Shown here: one piece after another, positions 2,266 through 40,500 of the stretch
How the letters are laid out: every line of letters begins with the position of its first letter
Position numbering within the stretch: the stretch's first letter is position 1
Source: Mesodorylaimus sp. YZB2_4
Lineage: Eukaryota; Nematoda; Enoplea; Dorylaimida; Dorylaimidae
Reading direction: 5' to 3'
Assembly (NCBI GenBank): GCA_030248295.1
Contig: JASANH010000585.1
Span: 1-64,000, forward strand
DNA: 64,000 nucleotides
The notes under the pieces: generated by a model
Databases searched by the model: none
Told to the model about the DNA's origin: nothing
Seen by the model: the letters and a program-made list of their open reading frames with translations, nothing else
Translations under genes and position numbers: made by a program

Positions 2266-5200
2266 GGTGCGCGCTGGTGCGAACACGTGCGTGACAGTGC
2301 AGACAGGTGCGCATAACCAATGCAGACGGGTGCTCGCTGAGACAGGTGGACCAGTGCACAGGTCGCCCAATGCGGACAGCTGCGCGCTGCTGAAGACCAG
2401 TGCGTGACAGTGCGGACGGGTGCGCATAACCAATGCAGACAGGTGGGCGCTGCTGCAGACCAGTGCGTGACAGTGCAGACAGGTGCGCATAACCAATGCA
2501 GACAGGTGCGCGCTGGTGCGAACCAGTGCGTGACAGTGCGGACAGGTGCGCATAACCAATGCAGACAGGTGCGCGCTGCTGCAGACCAGTGCGTGACAGT
2601 GCGGACAGGTGCGCATAACCAATGCGGACAGGTGCGCGCTGCTGCAGACCAGTGCGTGACAGTGCGGACAGGTGCGCATAACCAATGCAGACAGGTGCGC
2701 GCTGCTGCAGACCAGTGCGTGACAGTGCGAACAGGTGCGAGTAACCAATGCGGACAGGGTCGTGCTAGTGCGGACGAGTGCATGACAGCGCGGATAGGTG
2801 CGCATAACCAATGCAGACAGGTGCGCATAACCAATGCAGACGGTTGCTCGCTAAGGTGGACCCGTGCGTGCCAATGCGGACAGCTGCGCGCTGCTGCAGA
2901 CCAGTGCGTGACAGTGCGGACAGGTGCGCATAACCAATGCAGACAGGTGCGCGCTGGTGCGAACAAGTGCGTGACAGTGCAGACAGGTGCGCATAACCAA
3001 TGCAGACGGTTGCTCGCTAAGGTGGACCCGTGCGTGCCAATGCGGACAGCTGCGCGCTGCTGCAGACCAGTGCGTGACAGTGCGGACAGGTGCGCATAAC
3101 CAATGCAGACAGGTGGGCGCTGCTGCAGACCAGTCCGTGACAGTGCGGACAGGTGCGCATAACCAATGCAGACAGGTGCGCGCTGGTGCGAACCGGTGCG
3201 TCTCAGTGCGGACAGGTGCGCATAACCAATGCAAACAGGTTCGCGCTGGTGCGAATCAGTGCGTGACAGTGCGGACAGGTGCGCATAACCAATGCAGACA
3301 GGTGCGCGCAAAACCACTGCGGACAGGTGGGCGCTGCTGCAGACCAGTGCGTGGCAGTGCGGACAGGTGCGCATAACCACTGCGGACAGGTGGGCGCTGC
3401 TGCAGACCAGTGCGTGACAGTGCGGACAGGTGCGCATCAACCAGTGCGTGACAGTGCGGACAGGTGCGCATAACCAATGCAACAGGTGGGCGCTGCTGCA
3501 GACCAGTGCGTGACAGTGCGGACAGGTGCGCATAACCAATGCAGACAGGTGGGCGCTGCTGCAGCCGTGCGACACAGTGCGTGACAGTGCGGACAGGTGC
3601 GCATAACCAATGCAGACAGGTGCGCGCTGGTGCAACCAGTGCGTGACAGTGCGGACAGGTGCTCCTCCTCCGCCGGTCTGCGCGCATAACCAATGCAGAC
3701 AGGTTCGCGCTGGTGCGAATCAGTGCGTGACAGTGCGGACAGGTGCGCATAACCAATGCAGACAGGCGGGCGCTGCAGCAGACCAGTGCGTGACAGTGTG
3801 GACAGGTGCGCATAACCAATGCAGACAGGTGCGCGCTGGTGCGAACCAGTGCGTGACAGTGCGGACAGGTGCGCACAACCACTGCGGACAGGTGGGCGCT
3901 GCTGCAGACCAGTGCGTGACAGTGCGGACAGGTGCACATAACCAATGCAGACAGGCGGGCGCTGCTGCAGACCAGTGCGTGACAGTGCGGACAGGTGCGC
4001 ATAACCAATGCAGACAGGTGCGCGCTGGTGCGAACCAGTGCGTGACAGTGCGGACAGGTGCGCATAACCAATGCAGACAGGTGCGCGCTGCTGCAGACCA
4101 GTGCGTGACAGTGCGGACAGGTGCGCATAACCAATGCAGACAGGTGCGCGCTGCTGCAGACCAGTGCGTGACAGTGCGGACAGGTGCGCATAACCAATGC
4201 AGACAGGTGCGCGCTGCTGCAGACCAGTGCGTGACAGTGCGGACAGGTGCGCATAACCAATGCAGACAGGTGCGCGCTGGTGCGAACCAGTGCGTGTCAG
4301 TGCGGACAGGTGCGCATAACCACTGCGGACAGGTTGGCGCTGCTGCAGACCAGTGCGTGACAGTGCGGACAGGTGCGCATAACCAATGCAGACAGGTGCG
4401 CGCTGCTGCAGACCAGTGCGTGACAGTGCGGACAGGTGCGCAAAACCAATGCAGACAGGTGCGCGCTGGTGCGAACCAGTGCGTGACAGTGCGGACAGGT
4501 GCGCATAACCACTGCGGACAGGTGGGCGCTGCTGCAGACCAGTGCGTGACAGTGCGGACGGGTGCGCATAACCAATGCAGACAGGTGGGCGCTGCTGCAG
4601 ACCAGTGCGTGACAGTGCGGACAGGTGCGCATAACCAATGCGGACAGGTGCGCGCTGCTGCAGACCAGTGCGTGACAGTGCGGACAGGTGCGCATAACCA
4701 ATGCAGACAGGTGCGCGCTGCTGCAGACCAGTGCGTGACAGTGCGGACAGGTGCGCATAACCACTGCAGACAGGTGGGCGCTGCTGCAGACCAGTGCGTG
4801 ACAGTGCGGACAGGTGCGCATAACCAATGCGGACAGGTGCGCGCTGCTGCAGACCAGTGCGTGACAGTGCGGACAGGTGCGCATAACCAATGCAGACAGG
4901 TGCGCGCTGGTGCGAACCAGTGCGTGACAGTGCGGACAGGTGCGCATAACCACTGCGGACATGTGGTCGTTGGTGCAGACCAGTGCGTGACAGTGCGGAC
5001 AGGTGCGCATAACCAATGCAGACAGGTGCGCGCTGGTGCAAACCAGTGCGTGGCGGTGCGGACAGTCCTGCGACAGGTGCGCATAACCAATGCAGACAGG
5101 TGGCGCTGGTGCAGACCAGTGCGTGACAGTGCGGACAGGTGCGCATAACCAATGCAGACAGGAGCGCGCTCGTGCACAACAGTGCGTGACAGTGAGGACA

Positions 5201-8200
5201 GGAGCGCATAACCACTGCAGACAGGTGGGCGCTGCTGCAGACCAGTGCGTGACAGTGCGGACAGGTGCGCATAACCAATGCAGACAGGTGCGCGCTGCTG
5301 CAGACCAGTGCGTGACAGTGCGGACAGGTGCGCATAACCAATGCAGACAGGTGCGCGCAGGTGCGAACCAGTGCGTGTCAGTGCGGACAGGTGCGCACAA
5401 CCACTGCGGACAGGTGGGCGCTGCTGCAGACCAGTGCGTGACAGTGCGGACAGGTGCGCATAACCAATGCAGACAGGCGGGCGCTGCTGCAGACCAGTGC
5501 GTGACAGTGCGGACAGGTGCGCTTAGACAGGCGGGCGCTGCTGCAGACCAGTGCGTGACAGTGCGGACAGGTGCGCATAACCAATGCAGACAGGTGCGCG
5601 CTGGTGCGAACCAGTGCGTGACAGTGCGAACAGGTGCGCATAACCACTGCGGACAAGTGGGCGCTGCTGCAGACCAGTGCGTGACAGTGCGAACAGGTGC
5701 GCATAATTACTGCAGACAGGTGGGCGCTGCTGCAGACCAGTGCGTGACAGTGCGGACAGGTGCGCATAACCAATGCGGACAGGTGCGCGCTGCTGCAGAC
5801 CAGTGCGTGACAGTGCAGACAGGTGCGCATAACCAATGCAGACAGGTGCGCGCTGCTGCAGACCAGTGCGTGACAGTGCGAACAGGTGCGAGTAACCAAT
5901 GCGGACAGGGTCGTGCTAGTGCGGACGAGTGCATGACAGTGCGGATAGGTGCGCATAACCAATGCAGACAGGTGCGCATAACCAATGCAGACGGTTGCTC
6001 GCTAAGGTGGACCCGTGCGTGCCAATGTGGACAGCTGCGCGCTGCTGCAGACCAGTGCGTGACAGTGCGGACAGGTGCGCATAACCAATGCAGACAGGCG
6101 GGCGCTGCAGCAGACCAGTGCGTGACAGTGCGGACAGGTGCGCATAACCAATGCAGACAGGTGCGCGCTGGTGCGAACCAGTGCGTGACAGTGCGGACAG
6201 GTGCGCATAACCAATGCAGACAGGTGCGCGCTGGTGCGAACCAGTGCGTGACAGTGCGGACAGGTGCGCATAACCAATGCAGACAGGTGCGCGCTGGTGC
6301 GAACCAGTGCGTGACAGTGCGGACAGGTGCGCATAACCACTGCGGACAAGTGGGCGCTGCTGCAGACCAGTGCGTGACAGTGCGGACAGGTGCGCATAAC
6401 CACTGCGGACAGGTGGGCGCTGCTGCAGACCAGTGCGTGACAGTGCGGACAGGTGCGCATAACCAATGCGGACAGGTGCGCGCTGCTGCAGACCAGTGCG
6501 TGACAGTGCAGACAGGTGCGCATAACCAATGCAGACAGGTGCGCGCTGCTGCAGACCAGTGCGTGACAGTGCGAACAGGTGCGAGTAACCAATGCGGACA
6601 GGGTCGTGCTAGTGCGGACGAGTGCATGACAGTGCGGATAGGTGCGCATAACCAATGCAGACAGGTGCGCATAACCAATGCAGACGGTTGCTCGCTAAGG
6701 TGGACCCGTGCGTGCCAATGCGGACAGCTGCGCGCTGCTGCAGACCAGTGCGTGACAGTGCGGACAGGTGCGCATAACCAATGCAGACAGGTGCGCGCTT
6801 GCACCAGTCCGTGACAGTGCAGACAGGTGCGCATAACCAATGCAGACGGGTGCGCGCTGCTGCAGACCAGTGCGTAACAGTGCGACAGGTGCGCATAACC
6901 AATGCAGACAGGTGCGCGCTGCCTGCAGACCAGTGCGTGACAGTGCGGACAGGTGCGCATAACCAATGCAGACAGGTGCGGCGGACAGGTGCGCTAACCA
7001 ATGCAGACGTGCGGACAGTGCGGACAGGTGCGCATCCAAGGTGGACCCGTGCGTGCCAATGCAGACAGCTGCGCGCTGCTGCAGACCAGTGCGTGACAGT
7101 GCGGACAGGTGCGCATAACCAATGCAGACAGGTGGGCGCTGCTGCAGACCAGTGCGTGACAGTGCGGACAGGTGCGCATAACCAATGCAGACAGGTGCGC
7201 GCTGGTGCGAACCAGTGCGTGACAGTGCGGACAGGTGCGCATAACCACTGCGGACAGGTGGGCGCTGCTGCAGACCAGTGCGTGACAGTGCGGACAGGTG
7301 CGCATAACCAATGCAGACAGGCGGGCGCTGCTGCAGACCAGTGCGTGACAGTGCGGACAGGTGCGCATAACCAATGCAGACAGGTGCGCGCTGGTGCGAA
7401 CCAGTGCGTGACAGTGCGGACAGGTGCGCATAACCACTGCGGACAGGTGGGCGCTGCTGCAGACCAGTGCGTGACAGTGCGGACAGGTGCGCATAACCAA
7501 TGCAGACAGGTGGGCGCTGCTGCAGACCAGTGCGTGACAGTGCGGACAGGTGCGCATAACCAATGCAGACAGGTGCGCGCTGGTGCGAACCAGTGCGTGA
7601 CAGTGCGGACAGGTGCGCATAACCACTGCAGACAGGTTGGCGCTGCTGCAGACCAGTGCGTGACAGTGCGGACAGGTCGCATAACATGCTGAAGTGCGCT
7701 GCAGACCAGTGCGGACAGTGCACAGTGCGCAAACCAATGCAGACAGGTGCGCGCGTGCAAGTCTGACAGTGCGGACAGGTGCGCATAACCACTGCGAACA
7801 GGTGGGCGCTGCTGCAGACCAGTGCGTGACAGTGCGGACAGGTGCGCATAACCAATGCGGACAGGTGCGCGCTGCTGCAGACCAGTGCGTGACAGTGCGG
7901 ACAGGTGCGCATAACCAATGCAGACAGGTGCGCGCTGGTGCAGACCAGTGCGTGACAGTGCGGACAGGTGCGCATAACCAATGCGGACAAGTGGGCGCTG
8001 CTGCAGACCAGTGCGTGACAGTGCGGACAGGTGCGCAAAAAAAATGCGGACAGGTGCGCGCTGCTGCAGACCAGTGCGTGACAGTGCGGACAGGTGCGCA
8101 TAACCAATGCAGACAGGTGCGCGCTGGTGCGAACCAGTGCGTGACAGTGCGGACAGGTGCGCATAACCAATGCGGACAGGTGCGCGCTGCTGCAGACCAG

Positions 8201-11200
8201 TGCGTGACAGTGCGGACAGGTGCGCATAACCAATGCAGACAGGTGCGCGCTGCTGCAGACCAGTGCGTGACAGTGCGGACAGGTGCGCATAACCAATGCA
8301 GACAGGTGCGCGCTGGTGCGGACCAGTGCGTGACAGTGCGGACAGGTGCGCATAACCACTGCGGACAGGTGGGCGCTGCTGCAGACCAGTGCGTGACAGT
8401 GCGGACAGGTGCGCATAACCAATGCAGACAGGTGGGCGCTGCTGCAGACCAGTGCGTGACAGTGCGGACAGGTGCGCATAACCAATGCAGACAGGTGCGC
8501 GCTGGTGCGAACCAGTGCGTGACAGTGCGGACAGGTGCGCATAACCACTGCGGACAGGTGGGCGCTGCTGCAGACCAGTGCGTGACAGTGCGGACAGGTG
8601 CGCATAACCAATGCAGACAGGTGCGCGCTGCTGCAGACCAGTGCGTGACAGTGCGGACAGGTGCGCATAACCAATGCAGACAGGTGCGCGCTGGTGCGAA
8701 CCAGTGCGTGACAGTGCGGACAGGTGCGCATAACCACTGCGGACAGGTGGGCGCTGCTGCAGACCAGTGCGTGACAGTGCGGACAGGTGCCAAAACAATG
8801 CAGACAGGTGGGCGCTGCTGCAGACCAGTGCGTGACAGTGCGGACAGGTGCGCATAACCAATGCGGACAGGTGCGCGCTGCTGCAGACCAGTGCGTGACA
8901 GTGCAGACAGGTGCGCATAACCAATGCAGACAGGTGCGCGCTGCTGCAGACCAGTGCGTGACAGTGCGAACAGGTGCGAGTAACCAATGCGGACAGGGTC
9001 GCGCTAGTGCGGACAGTGCATGACAGTGCGGACAGGTGCGAAACCAAGCAGACAGGTGCGCATAACCAGCGCAGCAGAGGGTGCTCGCTAAGTGGACAGT
9101 GCGTACCAATGCGGACAGGTGCGCGCTCTGCAGACCAGTGCGTGACAGTGCGGACAGGTGCGCATAACCAATGCAGACAGGTGCGCGCAGGTGCGAATTA
9201 GTGCGTGTCAGTGCGGACAGGTGCGCACAACCGCTGCGGACAGGTGGGCGCTGCTGCAGACAGGTGGGCGCTGCTGCAGACCAGTGCGTGACAGTGCGGA
9301 CAGGTGCGCATAACCAATGCAGACAGGTGCGCGCAGGTGCGAACCAGTGCGTGTCAGTGCAGACAGGTGCGCATAACCAATGCAGACGGTTGCTCGCTAA
9401 ATTGGACCCGTGCGTGCCAATTCGGACAGCTGCGCGCTGCTGCAGACCAGTGCGTGACAGTGCGGACAGGTGCGCATAACCAATGCAGACAGGCGGGCGC
9501 TGCTGCAGACCAGTGCGTGACAGTGCGGACAGGTGCGCATAACCAATGCAGACAGGTGCGCGCTGCGCACGCTGACAGTGGGACTGGTGCGCAACCATGC
9601 GACAGGCGCGCGTGACAGTGCGGACGGGTGCGCATAACCACTGCGGACAAGTGGGCGCTGCTGCAGACCAGTGCGTGACAGTGCGGACAGGTCCGCATAA
9701 TTACTGCGGACAAGTGGGCGCTGCTGCAGACCAGTGCGTGACAGTGCGGACAGGTGCGCATAACCAATGCGGACAGGTGCGCGCTGCTGCAGACCAGTGC
9801 GTGACAGTGCAGACAGGTGCGCATAACCAATGCAGACAGGTGCGCGCTGCTGCAGACCAGTGCGTGACAGTGCGGACAGGTGCGCATAACCAATGCAGAC
9901 AGGTGCGCGCTGGTGCGAACAAGTGCGTGACAGTGCAGACAGGTGCGCATAACCAATGCAGACGGTTGCTCGCTAAGGTGGACCCGTGCGTGCCAATGCG
10001 GACAGCTGCGCGCTGCTGCAGACCAGTGCGTGACAGTGCGGACAGGTGCGCATAACCAATGCAGACAGGTGCGCGCTGGTGCGAACAAGTGCGTGACAGT
10101 GCAGACAGGTGCGCATAACCAATGCAGACGGTTGCTCGCTAAGGTGGACCCGTGCGTGATAATGTGGACAGCTGCGCGCTGCTGCAGACCAGTGCGTGAC
10201 AGTGCGGACAGGTGCGCATAACCAATGCAGACAGGTGGGCGCTGCTGCAGACCAGTCCGTGACAGTGCGGACAGGTGCGCATAACCAATGCGGACAAGTG
10301 GGCGCTGCTGCAGACCAGTGCGTGACAGTGCGGACAGGTGCGCATAATTACTGCGGACAGGTGGGCGCTGCTGCAGACCAGTGCGTGACAGTGCGGACAG
10401 GTGCGCATAACCAATGCAGACAGGTGCGCGCTGGTGCGAACCAGTGCGTGACAGTGCGGACAGGTGCGCATAACCCCTGCGGACAAGTGGGCGCTGCTGC
10501 AGACCAGTGCGTGACAGTGCGGACAGGTGCGCATAATTACTGCGGACAGGTGGGCGCTGCTGCAGACCAGTGCGTGACAGTGCGGACAGGTGCGCATAAC
10601 CAATGCGGACAGGTGCGCGCTGCTGCAGACCAGTGCGTGACAGTGCAGACAGGTGCGCATAACCAATGCAGACAGGTGCGCGCTGCTGCAGACCAGTGCG
10701 TGACAGTGCGAACAGGTGCGAGTAACCAATGCGGACAGGGTCGTGCTAGTGCGGACGAGTGCATGACAGTGCGGATAGGTGCGCATAACCAATGCAGACA
10801 GGTGCGCATAACCAATGCAGACGGCTGCTCGCTAAGGTGGACCCGTGCGTGCCAATGCGGACAGCTGCGCGCTGCTGCAGACCAGTGCGTGACAGTGCGG
10901 ACAGGTGCGCATAACCACTGCGGACAGGTGGGCGCTGCTGCAGACCAGTGCGTGACAGTGCGGACGGGTGCGCATAACCAATGCAGACAGGTGGGCGCTG
11001 CTGCAGACCAGTGCGTGACAGTGCGGACAGGTGCGCATAACCAATGCAGACAGGTTCGCGCTGGTGCGAATCAGTGCGTGACAGTGCGGACAGGTGCGCA
11101 TAACCACTGCGGACAGGTGGGCGCTGCTGCAGACCAGTGCGTGACAGTGCGGACAGGTGCGCATAACCAATGCAGACAGGTGCGCGCTGCTGCAGACCAG

Positions 11201-11525
11201 TGCGTGACAGTGCGGACAGCTGCGCAAAACCAATGCAGACAGGTGCGCGTTGGTGCGAACCAGTGCGTGACAGTGCGGACAGGTGCGCATAACCACTGCG
11301 GACAGGTGGGCGCTGCTGCAGACCAGTGCGTGACAGTGCGGACGGGTGCGCATAACCAATGCAGACAGGTGGGCGCTGCTGCAGACAAGTGCGTGACAGT
11401 GCGGACAGGTGCGCATAACCAATGCAGACAGGTGCGCGCTGGTGCAAACCAGTGCGTGACAGTGCGGACAGGTTCGCATAACCACTGCGGACAAGTGGGC
11501 GCTGCTGCAGACCAGTGCGTGACAG
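2266..11525. repeat. Large 63-bp satellite array (about 147 copies)
   Basis: A continuous tandem array with a 63-base period, deduced from the 21-residue period in every open frame (plus-strand unit NQCRQVRAAADQCVTVRTGAH). A typical unit contains GCATAACCAATGCAGACAGG, then GTGCGCGCTGCTGCAGACC or the variant GCTGGTGCGAACC, then AGTGCGTGACAGTGCGG. Most units carry a CTGCAG site. Because 63 is divisible by three and the consensus lacks stops in several frames, long ORFs of up to 967 codons appear on both strands. They are broken wherever unit length slips (about 3300-3700, 6780-7050, 7670-7770, 9000-9270, 9560-9620). I see no signal sequence, family resemblance or codon preference, so I call this non-coding satellite DNA. 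The borders are sharp: unique sequence resumes at about 11526. Confidence 0.9.
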
Positions 11526-11539
11526 TGACGACTGGAAGT

Positions 11540-28500: not shown

Positions 28501-31500
28501 GATTGTCTCTTTATCCAAAACGATGTCAAATCTCTGTGAATAGAGACTGTACGCACGCTGCCGTCTTCACACAACAGCAGAACTGACGATTGCTGCAAAA
28601 AGAGAAGTCACGTCGATGCGTCATTCAGTGGCTGTCAAGAAGTGGCATTCACTCACCGCGTCTTCCCCTGGTCCCACGCTGCGGCACAGAACTGCGTCCA
28701 AGACCTAGAATACGATTCCGACGTCAAATAATCGATCGAATCGATCACATACATTGCCACAACAACATACCTTAGCTTTTGGTGGCAGTGTCAGTTCTTG
28801 AACCAAAATCGAGCGTGGCCGAAGGAAAAGAACCACAGGGGTTTGACTAGAATGCGTCAAAGCAACTAGAAGACCCCCGTGACCGTGAATCTCATTCCAA
28901 CGATATAACGATTGAGATGCGACCGATTTTTGTCCACTAAAAAACGCAAGAAATGATAACTCCGGTCCACATTATAAAACAACCGTACCTTTTCCAAGTA
29001 ATGAAATGTATTTTCTTCACAGTTCCCAGACCGGACGAAGACGGGTTGATTGAACAAAACATATTTTTTCCTGCAAAGCAAGACTGTGCTCGTGCTTCCA
29101 AGACACTGGCGCCTCGTCTTACCCGAGGTGTAAGAAACGAACAGCAATTGCAAACTGTGCGAATAATACACCGAGACACCGCCTCCTCCAAGATTACCAT
29201 TCGATTCTTCCAACTCGTCGTGGCGCATGTCCAACACGTCAGTGATGTAGAACGACCCATGCCGTTCGTTGTGACAATGATCGCCGAGACTTTGCGTGTA
29301 GATATAGCCGCTGGATGTCATCAGCAATAAGTAGCGTTCGATTCCTTGATTGCCATTATTCTTAGTTGCTAAATACAAAACACATGCCACCACCTCTTAT
29401 CAGTTCACTAACTACAATACCAGCTGCTGACCAGGGTTGGCCCTCCCGATTTCACAACTGTCGGGACATGGACATTGCAAAATTATCCATAGGCAACGAG
29501 CACCACTTCTACATATCTGGCAGCCAATACACTCACTTGGCATCGAAAGCACTCAGCTTTGTCCTCAGCAAAAAGCCAGCTCCTCTGACCCTCATTTTTC
29601 TTTAACGCAGCATCGAATACTACCAGGCCATTTCAATTCTAATTCATTCCAGCATCGACCGATCCACCGATCCGGCCGAACCGATCCGCCGATCCAGGGG
29701 GTGGATCGGATCCCGATCCGATCCGACCGCTGGATCGGCGGATCGGCATTTCAAATTTGCCGCGCATTACCTGCTTGAAAAACACGCGTATGACTTGTTT
29801 TACGATACTCCTCTGACATTTGAGTTCTCTCCCATAATCATTGTCTCTGTGACATCGTGTACGTGAAGTTTTTTAATGGGTTCCAGAGGTCAGAGAGAAA
29901 TCAGATGCAATGGCGAATAGAAGAAGTGAATAAGGAGCTTAACGATAGCTTAACGGAGCTGGATCAGGATCAGGGCGATCCCGATTGGGATAGGATTTTT
30001 CTGTGTTTTGCGTTTGAGCCTTTATACCTCACTGAAGCACTTTTCAGTCATACAGCTTTTTTGAAACTTCTCCAATCAATTATTATTATAGATAATTTGA
30101 AAATTGATTTGAAAAATAGGTAGTTCTGATACAGGCCATATATAGATATGCCATGCCAGCTCACGTCATGTCATGCTTTATTCCTGACCAAGCACCATGC
30201 AGCACTATCGGGGGTTAGGAAACATATGTCATGTATTGACAATTAATTTTACCCAGGCGAGAGTCGAACTCTCCCCTCTAATCGTAAGTGCGCACCTAGC
30301 GTGACAGGCAAACGACTACCGCAGGCTACGCCCCAGTTTTGCTTCCACCCCCAGAGCTGCTACAGACTACGATAAACAGACTAGCCTAGCTAGCGTGCTT
30401 TTTTCTTTATTTATGCAGAATCCCCATGCCTAATCGTCGGGATCCTGGCCTGTCGTTGAGGATCACGCGAAGAAACGAGCTTGTTTGGAGTCCCGCTTAT
30501 TGGGCCTGAAGGCCCAATTAAGATATGTAAAACGATTTGAAATCAGAGTTTTTTAAATCAGTGAATGAAGAACAAAGATTGCGCAGAATTTTGGACACAG
30601 TTTTTGGCTTGGGATCGGTTAGGATCGGATCGGCTGGATCGGATCGGATCGGATCGGATCGGCCGGATCGGATCGGATCGGGATCGGATCGGGCCGATCC
30701 AGAGCATGGATCGGATCGGGATCCGGACTGAGGGTCGGATCGGTCGATGCTGGAATTCATTCCTGGAGAACGAATTAGAAGGTCAGTCCATCGTCACTCA
30801 CTGTCCTCTACCTGTGATGTTTGGGGCGCCAAACTCAATTTTCAATTAGTTGATGGGTGCAGGGTACCAGTACGGTATAATTTTCATACCCATGGACCCA
30901 TTATCCATGGACATGGTTGCACTGATTGTGAGAAGCACAGATCTTTCATCAATACTTTAATTTTTTGCCCTTTAGCTTGCTCACAGCAAACAATCTCACA
31001 TTGTTTTGAATGCATCGGTTTTGACTCCAAATATTCGAGAAAATGAGCAGTTGGAGCAAAAATTTTCACAATTTCTACAAAGTCACCCAGACCCGACAAC
31101 TTTACCCTCTCCCCAAGCCCCGACTCCAGTCATAGATTTTTGCCCAGATCGCTAAAACCAACCCATGGCAACTAATAAAATCAGCTACTCCCTTTTCTCC
31201 ACGTACCTCGACAAACAAACGTCGCATCACGAATTTTTCCAGCTGGTAACAAAAAATCATATTCGGGTCGGGCGGAACTCTTTGCCAAATCGTACACGCG
31301 AACAAAATCTGCCGTTACTAAGGCGATTTCCGTCGTGCTTCCAGGCAACCATATAGCCTAAAAACGCGTGGAGTATATGTATCCCGTCCACAAATGTCCC
31401 TGATCCCTATATCGTACCTTTATCACGAAATTTCCAACGTCCAAATTCAGTGACAGCGTCAAACGATCGCAAATGGAACCAGTTTGTGACAGCGTGACAA

Positions 31501-34500: not shown

Positions 34501-37500
34501 GACGATGGCCAATCATCTACAAAAGCTTCCCCCTAAAACCCTCCCTCATTGTCCCATAGAAAAAGGCTTACTAGTTGCCAAAGTCTCGACATGAGCCAAA
34601 TAGACTGAACGTAGATAATACTCGACCGGAGCCAAATCTTGTGCGAATTCGTTCCTCTGCAACCCGTAATCCATTATATTCAGATAAAACCAAAAGAAAA
34701 ATACTCTCCTACCCAAGATCCAGCCGCTGGAAACTGGTTCAGATTCCGACGATTCCAAAATTCGATCGAAGCCCTCAGCGACGGATGAGCATTATACCAA
34801 CACCCATTCGTTATCGTACTGCTCTGATGTGGATGCGTGCCGCACAGAGACATCAATTTCAGCGCCGCTTGTCGCGCCTCCGGAGTAGAAGGAAACCCAC
34901 CACTTGGCATCCTGATCGCACGTTCGATCAATAGCGACCTACAAACATTTCCCACATCCCAACTAGCCTACTTTCTAGATTCCAACTCACTCACCTCGCC
35001 GCCGAAAAGAAGTCCATCAATACGTTCCTGAAAGTTCGAATCGGTATCGCATCTGCGGATATTTTGGTTTTCCCACCATCCTGCAATATAAAACACTTCA
35101 TCATTCCCATTCCTCAGCACACAGCAATCGACTTACTGATTGACGCGCTGAATCCAAGAGAGCGTAGGCGCGACAAAGCAATACATCGGAGTAAACAATG
35201 TCCACGAACGATGGAAACTCGGCCAGATTTGAATAGGCAACATCCACAACCCATTTGCCCTTCTGCAAATAACCAAACATGACCCAGTGAACAGTAAACG
35301 CTCACTGTCCTTCCCTTACCATATTTTCGATAGCTTTTCCAATCAAAGCCAAAATTAAAGCAGCATCGTCATTTTTTGCCGTTACCTGACGCACGATTTC
35401 TTCCACTTGTTCCGCATTTCGCCCTTGTTTTATCAAACCGTCCTAAACCAACTAATGCATAGAAGTGGATCAAAACGACATAAATGTCACACACCTTAAC
35501 CCAGCCACCAAAACCAGCTTCCGTCATTCGAATTCCTGTCGATAATAAGAACACACGAGACTTGCCGACTGGAGCCGTCGATACTGTCTCCGTCGTCCAC
35601 GAAGCCACTTCTTCCAAAAATTTCACCGATGGCGGTAATAAATTGAGGATTCGCCAAGTCAATGTGCAACAATAATGCAGCACTGCACGTTGGAAAGTGC
35701 TCGTCTGTTCGCTCGGGCGAAAATGATCGTAGAAAGTGGTCAGCTCGCAACACGAATCGTACAGTTCGCTATAACTTGCCACAGTTTGGATAAAAGTCGC
35801 AGCTAAGCCATCAAGTTTCGGAATAGTATCCATCGATACATTCCATAGCAAAGTATAGAAAAATGGTGCCATTTTCACTAAAATCCACAAACAATCATCA
35901 TCTTCCCGCTTCTTATAAATTCCGCTTACCTTGTTGCATATTAGGAGTTTCTGTTCGATAAATCTCTTCGATACTCTCGCCAGAACAATGAACTGAAATA
36001 GGACGTCGACTCGATTCCAGGATGAGCGACGGCGGACCCGTCTCCTCTATCGTCGACTGAATCGGGAATACATCTCTCTTCAACTAAAAATACAACGCCG
36101 CTACGTACAGTCAACCCGAATCCAACAAATTTGTTTCCAAGTACCTGTACAAGGAATTCCTGCGGCGGCTCATTGAAATATTGCAACAAATATTCGAAAA
36201 TGATCATTAAACGAGCGAAATGAGACGACACGTTGTTGTGCAAGATTCTGTAATCGATCAGAACCCATTCAATACACTCCTCCCACAGATCACCGTGCTC
36301 TTACCTGGTTTTACGGTTTTCGTTAACAACCTCCGTTATGGTCTTGTTCACGGCCATAAGAACGGTCTTCTTTTGCATCAACTGCAGCGAATGAAATAAC
36401 GACAGTAACACCAGCAAATGTTCGATGTTCACATCTATAGCAAAGCATACGTGCCGATCAATACCACAACAGTCATCATCACGCCTCCCCGCTTACCCAC
36501 GATATCAATTTGGTCGTGCTCCATGAATGTATTCTGCTTCAAACTATTCAAGAATCGTTTCCAAATCGTGACAATCACAGCGCCAGTTTCGCTGTGCCCG
36601 GATTCGTCTCGTTCTCTGGAAATCAATAAAACGTTGAATTATTTTGAAATGTCCATTCATAAAAGGACACATTCAACCCACTTGTTTTGTCTCAATAATA
36701 ACATTTGACATAGTATTCCTGCGAGACACGGCGATAAACTCAAGGGCCACTCAACGTCCGTATCCTCCGTTCTAATGCTAATATTCAATTTCTCCAATAA
36801 GCAAATCTGAAAATCCATCAACACACTCGTATGACGCCAAAAAGATAAGTGCAGCTGAAGAAACTCCTCCACACTCACCTCCAAAGCTTCATTCAATAAC
36901 CCGTTGGCAATCAGATTATGAACAAATTTGGTCAACGTGGTCGAGAACTCTGCCACGGATTCGTCTAAAACACAAAGACGACTCCCAACCACAGAGCTCG
37001 CTCGTTTAGATTAGACGATCATTAGTAGGACTCATCCCCTCCGATACCTTCCCCCGAGTGATCTCATTGAATTAGGCTTCCATAACTCGAGACCCATTTT
37101 AACGAGGCTACGTAAGAGCTTTTCATCCCACCAACAACATATAAGAAGCAAAAGCATATAAGAATAGCCCGAGGAGAATTCGGTCAATTCGACATCGACA
37201 GCCGCACAAAGGAGGTACGCATACACCAGTCTATGGCGACCATGACTTCCCTTAGTTTTTATGCGCTCCTCTTTCTCATCCTCTCCGTCAATCAACTCCA
37301 TTTTTCGGTCGTAGCCGAGTCGCATCACAACACTGCGGCCATGGCCAACGGCCAGCAGACCAACACGGTATGTTTATATCCTTACTTTTGATCCCCATCC
37401 CCCAGTCACTGCCCTAGCCCTTTCAGCGTTACCTAACCAAACGATCGTCGGGTTACATGGAAAGACTGCCGAGGATCAACGACGACTACGAGAAACGTTT

Positions 37501-40500
37501 GAGAACGTTGCCCCTCCGTTTCGGCAAACGAAGTCAACCCCTACTCTGCTACATCTCGCCATCAGCGTGCGTTTACTGAACGGATCGAGAAGATTAGAAG
37601 CGAGTGATCAGTGATAATAACTTATCTAACTTACCAACCAAACTTCCTGGCTCCCGTTGTACATCAACGGTGCGGATTAGCGTCGCCAAATGTCCCACTT
37701 CCCGTTCCGTCCAGCAAGAACTTATACTTTTCTTTAACGAGTCCATACGATAACCGTACAGAAAATCATCGTTCAGCATCCGTACGCAGCTTATTGACAA
37801 CGACATATACTGAAACCAGAAGAATGGATCAGTCTCTATGTGTCTCTCTCCACTCTCTCCAGAGCACTTTTTTAGGCTACGAGTTACCGTGACATGACAC
37901 ATGCGTTCCAGAGCACGTAGTGCCAAAGTCCCACAGCTATCAATCCCCCAGTAACCCACATCCGCTACTTACCGTGTGAGCATCCTCTTTCACTCCCAAT
38001 ATGGCGGACGATTCAGACGTTGCTGTTGTACGTCGTCGTAGTCCACTGTGCAGAATGCCAGCCGATTGCTTGACGGCCGAATCGACCAGTTGTGGCACGC
38101 TAGACAGCAGCTCTTCCAACCATGACCCCAAGAGAGGTTCGTTATCTATAAGATGCCATAATCAATACTTGACACACACTCAAACACGCGCTCATACCTG
38201 ATTCGCTCGGCGTATTTGGCACCGACTGAATCTGCGTAGCGTCCGACTCGGAATCTTGACGTTTACTGCCATTGGCCATTTCATTTACACTAGCTTTGAT
38301 CGACGTACGGTTTTCGCGTACCGCATCGACGCCCTGCAATACTCATCGTTCACTTCATGATGATACAAGAAACCTTTTCTTACCTTCAAGAACGAGTCCC
38401 GTGCAATGGTCACGAGTACAGGGAGTATCTTGCACCGTCGATTTATAAAATCGAATCGTTGCCAGGATGTGAGAACACTGTTCACATTCAGATCCGTCAC
38501 CATATCCTGCAATCGCCCTCTATTATTTCACAAACTCTTAAAAACTTACTGTTTCTCACAGATTTGCCAGTATCCGTTTTCAAATCAGCCAACAATGGTT
38601 GCAACAGAGTCAAGAACTGTTGCGCGATGCATACGATTACTCCGCTAAAAACTCAATGCTCAATTAGCCTCAAAAAAATAAAAATAAAACCACCATACTT
38701 CATATCATATTCCCGCAACATAAAATCCAACGCGGACGAAATGCACCAAACACCGAGGGCCCGCATGTTTTGCAATTGCTAAAATAGGAAAACAGTGACA
38801 TAACAAAACGATCGCCAAGACACCTCATGCTTACCGTGCCGCCAATATTGTGCGAAAGCTGGATATTGTTCAGAATTGTCGAAAATATAACCAACTACAA
38901 TTATAGATTCCCTGGCATATAAATTAAAGATGCTGATCAAAAAATATAACTTACCGATTTCTCAACGACGTTGTTTACGAACGTTTCCAAATCTTGAGCC
39001 GCAGTCGCTTCCGCATCCGATTTCGGCGCGTAGTTATGATACGCGATCACGACCGTGCAAGCTGCCAGTATGCAAGTACAGCCCAACGAGCACAGCTGCA
39101 ATCAAATGCATTTGATACATAAGCACGCACTTCCATTGCCTAGTCCACACCTCAGCAAATCTCACTGCAAGACAACTGGACCTGAAAGATCGACAGGCCC
39201 AGCCCACAACCAGAACCACAAGATACAGTAGCGTTCTCAACGAGCTGGGGGGGGGGAGAACGGCTTTCACAAAATGCACAAGTCCTGCTTTTTCTGAAAT
39301 ATAGAGACTTTGGGGAATGACTGAACTGATAAAGAGGAAGGAAGGGATTTGTTTTCTAATTGGTGACTGATTCTTCGCTTTTTTGCTTGTCTGATCTTAA
39401 ATGCAATGATATAAATACCGCACTACAAATTATCCAAGGAAAGGGAATTTCTGGCTGTTTCTTCGCTGGTTACTTAGAATGAGTTGTTGGTCATCTACAG
39501 GGAGCGAAAAATGCTCGTTTAAAAAATGTCGATTTGTGGTCGGGATTGAGGAGTTTCGACCTGGAACTAACGCCACCCACAAGACGCTTACCTTCGATAG
39601 ACGATCGGGTGTCAATGGCTCCAATAAGGGCAATACTACAACCCTCGACACCATCACTATGTCATTCAAAAACGACGAGTGCCTGCAAGGAAAATGCAAA
39701 GATATGCACAGGACAGTCGCATACCAAAGTGTTTGAACAACGTACGAATCAAATATGCTTTGGCATTCACTAGCGTTTATGTTGGCGAAGGGCGCTTCCC
39801 CACGCATCATATCTCGGAACATTAGGTTATAGCGGGCCAAAAATGGTAATTTCAAACATACGTCGATCAAAATTGACCCGGCGTTCAACAGGGACAAGTG
39901 CTGCATGCACTCACTGACGAACTGATCCTAAAACCAAACCTTTAAGGCCAGAACACAAGCAGGGTGTTGAAGCTACAGTACCTTGACATCTTTCGCAGCG
40001 TCTGTCGGAGTGGTTGGTTTTGATGACTCTTTCGATTTCTCGACCACTGAATCCGGCGGCACAGATACGCTCAGGAAATCAATAAGGTTTGTCATAACGG
40101 TCTCTGCTCTTGGAGGGGTTGAAGGTGACAATAACGCAGGAACACGATCCTTTTTGCGACCTTTCATGCTCATTTCATCCTCTGATAATTTGTCGGCTGA
40201 AAAGTAATCATCAGGCAACTTTTATTCAAAGAAAGAGCTTTAATTTACCGCCAATGGTAGCTCGAATATGCGGCGGCAATTGCGACGATTTCAATAAAGC
40301 TGCCAATGTAATCACATCCGATCGCTGCAAAAATCCTAGCCCTTTGCAAAGGCTTTTCACTAACAGTACGAACTGTTTCTGAAAAGTTTTAGAGATTGTC
40401 ATGAATCGAAAACTGTGGAAATCTATCCTCCACGTACCGGCATTACAGAACAATGTCCGTGTGGTGTTTCCAATCGATTTAATATAAATTCGGCCAATAT

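Follow-up and report, generated by a model that had tools for sequence, protein, structure and literature searches.

Can one small gene encode two neuropeptides that otherwise belong to separate-gene signalling systems? The question is raised by a locus of the nematode Mesodorylaimus sp. YZB2_4 (assembly GCA_030248295.1; 145 Mb in 1067 contigs), in the first 64 kb of the 309-kb contig JASANH010000585.1, the stretch of DNA that was analysed and that we call the window. Here, inside an intron of the gene UBR4 and on the opposite strand, we read a 95-residue predicted precursor that combines an RFamide cassette with a ring peptide resembling the insect hormone allatostatin-C. We consider it probable that this is a real, single-copy nematode neuropeptide gene, antisense in the UBR4 intron, which would yield a PLRFamide as well as a ring peptide of the allatostatin-C/somatostatin type. 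With less assurance, and as a proposition only somewhat better than even, we propose that this one gene makes an allatostatin-C/somatostatin ring together with an NPY/sNPF-type PLRFamide and so hard-wires two systems for co-release.

The precursor is read on the plus strand of the window from two coding exons, 37233-37367 (135 nt, 45 codons) and 37427-37579 (including the stop codon), which join into a layout of signal peptide, three Lys-Arg (KR) sites, RFamide cassette, and a 15-residue ring peptide directly before the stop. The predicted signal peptide (residues 1-28, 37233-37316) ends in ...SVVA, with the cleavage point placed by eye from the -3/-1 residues, and the N-terminus holds the single hydrophobic stretch of the precursor. 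The general marks of a neuropeptide precursor, a signal peptide and dibasic sites, are both present as judged by hydropathy and motif scan. The intron between the exons (37368-37426, 59 bp) is of the GT-AG type (GTATGT...CCCTTTCAG), lies in phase 0 after codon 45 of 95, and resembles the adjacent UBR4 introns (median 57 bp) in size and borders. In exon 2, the motif scan places KR sites at residues 50-51 (37439-37444), 68-69 (37493-37498), and 79-80 (37526-37531). A 16-residue spacer (37445-37492) separates the first two, LRTLPLRF followed by an amidation Gly (37499-37525) lies between the second and third, and the third is followed by the allatostatin-C-like peptide with its C-x6-C spacing (37532-37576). 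Upstream stand two TATA-like CATATAAGAA boxes, 17 bp apart and starting at 37138 and 37155 (37138-37164, plus strand), a candidate core promoter; these are the only two copies on the plus strand of the 64 kb, and the minus strand has none.

The host gene, UBR4, occupies roughly 20026-40541 on the minus strand in an approximate exon-intron model of the stretch 20001-46000, with both ends rough. Its identity is indicated by a UBR box recognisable by eye, by weak matches of Pfam E3_UBR4_N to two of the three minus-strand open reading frames (ORFs) scanned (E 3.5e-5 and 0.024, both under the curated cut-off), and by ORF 35369-36046, which matches five distinct sequences of the Protein Data Bank (PDB) at E up to 1, all of them UBR4 (best E 0.0019); minus-strand ORF 37594-37968 has no Pfam match. 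The precursor gene lies wholly within a 670-bp intron of this model (36965-37634, minus strand, GTAAGT...TTTTAG). A first-pass annotation had described this antisense nesting, the small precursor with its signal peptide, three KR sites, and amidation Gly, the tandem TATA boxes, and the prediction of both peptides from one precursor, and the two-exon model, hydropathy, motif scan, 95-residue translation, and UBR4 model bear out that description. The possibility that the reading is a UBR4 exon or read-through was rejected, the coding frames being on opposite strands and the UBR4 intron having its own splice ends. We counted intron lengths over 86 of the 100 modelled UBR4 introns, the 14 upstream of 40602 having been dropped as unreliable (5-nt exons). 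Of these 86, 74 are at most 75 bp long and one exceeds 670 bp, so that the host intron ranks second; it ranks third among all 100, one dropped intron measuring 785 bp. The longest (29369-30573, 1205 bp) has GGATC-like sequence inside it, and a GGATC-rich repeat begins adjacent to it at 30612.

How readily would such an arrangement arise by chance? We simulated 214 Mb of sequence from a third-order Markov model trained on window positions 12001-64000 (the gene included), and the core order, dibasic, dibasic, RFG-dibasic, C-x6-C, and end, does not occur in it; the looser order of RFG-dibasic, C-x6-C, and end occurs twice. Nor does the full core pattern occur in 311,954 bases of reversed real DNA, part of which comes from loci that overlap. 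Single elements are frequent in simulated sequence, with about 8.5 RFG-dibasic motifs per Mb over six frames and 2.7 CYxxPxxC motifs per Mb. Codon preference, trained on 35 open frames, each 340 aa or longer, from 34 receptor loci, scores the annotated frame at +3.6 bits against -13.5 and -7.4 for the shifted frames, and the synonymous-codon score of the coding sequence has a p of 0.016, modest because the sequence is short. This codon evidence is supportive, not strong. The genome holds one copy of the gene, both by DNA search (601 bases) and by protein search with exon 2 (50 aa, E up to 10), and neither search found a paralogous copy or repeat. In a scan for the ring pattern covering about 0.3 Mb of the 145 Mb, the nested gene was the sole match.

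Is the C-terminal peptide a member of the allatostatin-C/somatostatin family? According to the part of PMC7536072 available to us, the family is recognised by two cysteines, a single, C-terminally placed ring peptide, and an N-terminal intron in phase 0, to which the allatostatin-C branch adds an FXP motif. The nested precursor shows three of these four: the predicted peptide has the two cysteines of a C-x6-C ring, which would be closed by a disulphide, it comes last in the precursor, and the N-terminal intron is in phase 0; the FXP motif is the exception. The closest comparison is with C. elegans NLP-99, GDGYGWNDCEFSPLSCLL, which carries a disulphide at C9-C16 (PMC13082328, in excerpt) and activates the Gi/o-coupled receptor NPR-16, nlp-99 being described as the somatostatin/allatostatin-C ortholog. 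By eye, the two peptides share ring size, an S-P pair in register, a two-residue hydrophobic tail, and an unamidated end (in synthetic NLP-99), whereas the ring reads Y-I-S-P-S-A here and E-F-S-P-L-S in NLP-99, with I for F, and the nested gene carries an additional KR-flanked RFamide upstream of the ring. Other nematode allatostatin-C-like nlp genes (nlp-55, -62, -64, -66, -67, -71, -79, and -88 to -96) likewise have a ring peptide in the precursor, but the published motifs of nlp-88 to nlp-96, RNCFF(S/T)P(V/A)QC for nlp-88 to -91 and (K/R)NC(F/Y)F for nlp-92 to -96 (PMC8764417, in the portion seen), do not match the ring peptide of the nested gene.

The RFamide half is a basic-flanked peptide ending in RFG, as in FLP (RFamide) precursors, and its PLRFamide ending is that of FLP-15 and FLP-21. 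The C. elegans FLP-15 peptides are GGPQGPLRFa and RGPSGPLRFa and FLP-21 is GLGPRPLRFa, and NPR-1, NPR-3, and other receptors bind them (PMC4196577, in excerpt). The nested gene shares this ending with flp-15 and flp-21 and differs from them in having one copy next to a ring peptide. Conventional RFamide precursors also exist in this genome, with KNEYLRF, KHEYLRF, KNEFVRF, and KTEFLRF repeats on four contigs (11 matches, several in the same frame). These FLP-14-type precursors have KR-flanked RFamides as the nested gene does, but in repeat arrays, and the ring pattern was not found in their loci. With KNEYLRF, KNEFVRF, and KTEFLRF repeats (L057-L062 on G000:C393, C25, C74, and C65), they perhaps form an expanded set. 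Pfam FARP has no match in the genome and none in 14 control genomes, despite the RFamide arrays present, which makes that search uninformative. The RFamide could still be a processed but inactive by-product of an nlp-99-like allatostatin-C-type gene in which the ring is the sole ligand. The phase-0 intron, the single C-terminal ring, and the receptor genes described below would suit such a gene, the paper that names C. elegans nlp-99 mentions "a mature peptide" in its accessible text, and RFG-dibasic alone is frequent by chance; we nevertheless think it unlikely, since a complete RFamide cassette with an amidation Gly and a receptor-activating ending is much to keep accidentally.

On the receptor side, we read the translations of ten of the 30 7tm_1 loci and of another six loci, and compared three receptors with PDB sequences. 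For two receptor genes with a single open frame, L050 (E 5e-38) and L052 (E 1e-42), the best PDB matches are somatostatin receptors. Among the best 60 of 777 and 740 matches, these receptors take the top 22 places for L050 and the top 15 for L052, ahead of opioid-family receptors. By eye, L051 and L053 look like these two, and both match a fragment of human SSTR2. A third gene, L026, is closest to NPY2R (E 2e-57), with prolactin-releasing-peptide and NPFF receptors also high. Genes for both receptor kinds, somatostatin-type and NPY/NPFF-type, thus seem to be present, as candidate receptors for the two peptides. The phase-0 N-terminal intron, the C-terminal position, the likeness to NLP-99, and the two somatostatin-receptor-like genes add to the support for the allatostatin-C-like assignment that the first-pass annotation had made. 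Many seven-helix receptor genes in this genome (L013-L020, L024, L026, L030, and others) hold the whole domain in one open frame, in contrast to the approximately 86 modelled introns of UBR4, and the eight best 7tm_1 matches cover the full domain without a stop.

Several observations weigh against a working two-peptide gene. The coding signal is modest when set beside 95-codon stretches of the training frames, for which the median is 6.7 bits and the lowest tenth lies at about -0.3. On the plus strand, AATAAA is absent across 36900-37900, where AATAAC occurs at 37616 only, and a UBR4 exon starts 55 bp past the precursor stop. The precursor matches no Pfam family, no PDB sequence at E up to 10, and, in NCBIfam, two families weakly and irrelevantly. 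A modest codon signal and the want of a database family, in an assessment made from genome sequence alone, would suit a chance reading frame within the intron and no gene. This we regard as very improbable, because the core combination is absent from the 214 Mb of simulated sequence even before the signal peptide, splice sites, and promoter boxes are added, and the codon preference is in frame.

Other points of this kind bear on the ring peptide. It has I-S-P in place of F-X-P, and the nested gene, with one intron only, lacks the phase-2 C-terminal intron that is present in the C. elegans and Drosophila genes, a feature not stated as universal in the available part of PMC7536072. The NLP-99 peptide, used as a query of 20 aa, finds nothing in the genome at E up to 10 and misses the nested gene too, so it is too weak to test orthology; nor did it find a second nlp-99-like gene, a result that for the same reason means nothing. 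C-x6-C near a stop occurs by itself 63 times in the 311,954 reversed bases and is common by chance, and the real window contains six dibasic-plus-C-x6-C matches, the one in the nested gene included. The search with the human SSTR2 fragment is topped by the NPY-like L026 rather than by the somatostatin-type genes, and ranking by that single query would therefore mislead. The substitution in the ring and the commonness of C-x6-C near stops, taken with the PLRFamide ending, would fit a divergent flp-15/flp-21-type gene in which the two cysteines belong to a cryptic C-terminal remnant that is not a ligand. We rate this as quite unlikely, since the C-x6-C spacing, the S-P in register with NLP-99, and the position at the end of the precursor suit the allatostatin-C type, as does the phase-0 intron.

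On the favoured reading of a gene for two active peptides, the precursor would be transcribed from its own strand, enter the secretory pathway, and then be cleaved at the three KR sites. The first product would be an amidated, FLP-15/21-like PLRFamide (LRTLPLRF), and the second a disulphide-closed, unamidated ring peptide of 15 residues that may correspond to C. elegans NLP-99. Both peptides would come from the same neurons and the same vesicles, the ring peptide acting on one of the somatostatin-type receptors of this genome and the RFamide on an NPY/NPFF-type receptor. We would expect a gene active in this way to be conserved in related worms.

How new is such a pairing? The first-pass annotation had named the two peptide types as known from separate precursors, not from a combined one, and we agree as far as our search reaches: no published precursor joining an RFamide and an allatostatin-C ring was found in the literature searched, a scope that leaves out most subscription papers. 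Two peptides per precursor are already known, since preprosomatostatin also yields neuronostatin, a second, unrelated peptide used in amidated form (PMC7355908, in excerpt). Vertebrate preprosomatostatin resembles the nested precursor in joining a ring peptide with an unrelated second peptide and differs in that neuronostatin is no RFamide. Because of this precedent in the somatostatin precursor, we see the pairing as a variation on a known precursor type; what is new is this particular RFamide and ring pair, as a prediction for a single species. If true, it would offer a natural case in which to ask why co-release should join a somatostatin-type ring peptide to an RFamide. For clade 2 nematodes a low number of flp genes is reported, with a mean of 3.9 (PMC11658156, in the portion seen), and if this worm stands near clade 2, bifunctional precursors could carry RFamide signalling that gene counts overlook. 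A gene of 95 residues that is spliced, antisense, and nested is easily missed by annotation, and more may therefore exist.

Cuticle collagens mark the surrounding genome as a nematode's, with 133 matches to the nematode cuticle-collagen N-terminal domain. The two collagen loci that we read, L010 and L011, each have a membrane segment and an RxxR-type site; the Gly-X-Y stretch is long and in another frame in L010 and short in L011. The canonical spliced leader SL1 was not found in the genome at up to two mismatches. On one nuclear contig (G000:C73, about 250-256 kb; L007 5098-9855 and L008 1-1017), two inverted cox1-nad4 blocks have open frames in the invertebrate mitochondrial code; cox1 is full length in one and has a disrupted 5' part in the other, and the blocks are flanked by inverted copies of another gene, which by eye resembles an M13-type peptidase. 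This arrangement may reflect a recent transfer of mitochondrial DNA to the nuclear genome, a palindromic duplication, or a misassembly; 12 of the 15 cox1-like matches lie on other contigs. The absence of SL1 and the placing of cox1 directly before nad4, in what is a nuclear copy, would fit a non-chromadorean nematode, and this gene order was not found in the available parts of two mitogenome papers. Within the window, a 63-bp unit is repeated about 146 times in a 9-kb array at 2367-11527, with 60-62% GC and a strong strand asymmetry. As the unit length is divisible by 3, long frames stay open through the array (up to 486 aa among those listed). Near this satellite, at 1686-2014, lies an array with runs of TTAGGC, the nematode-type telomere repeat.

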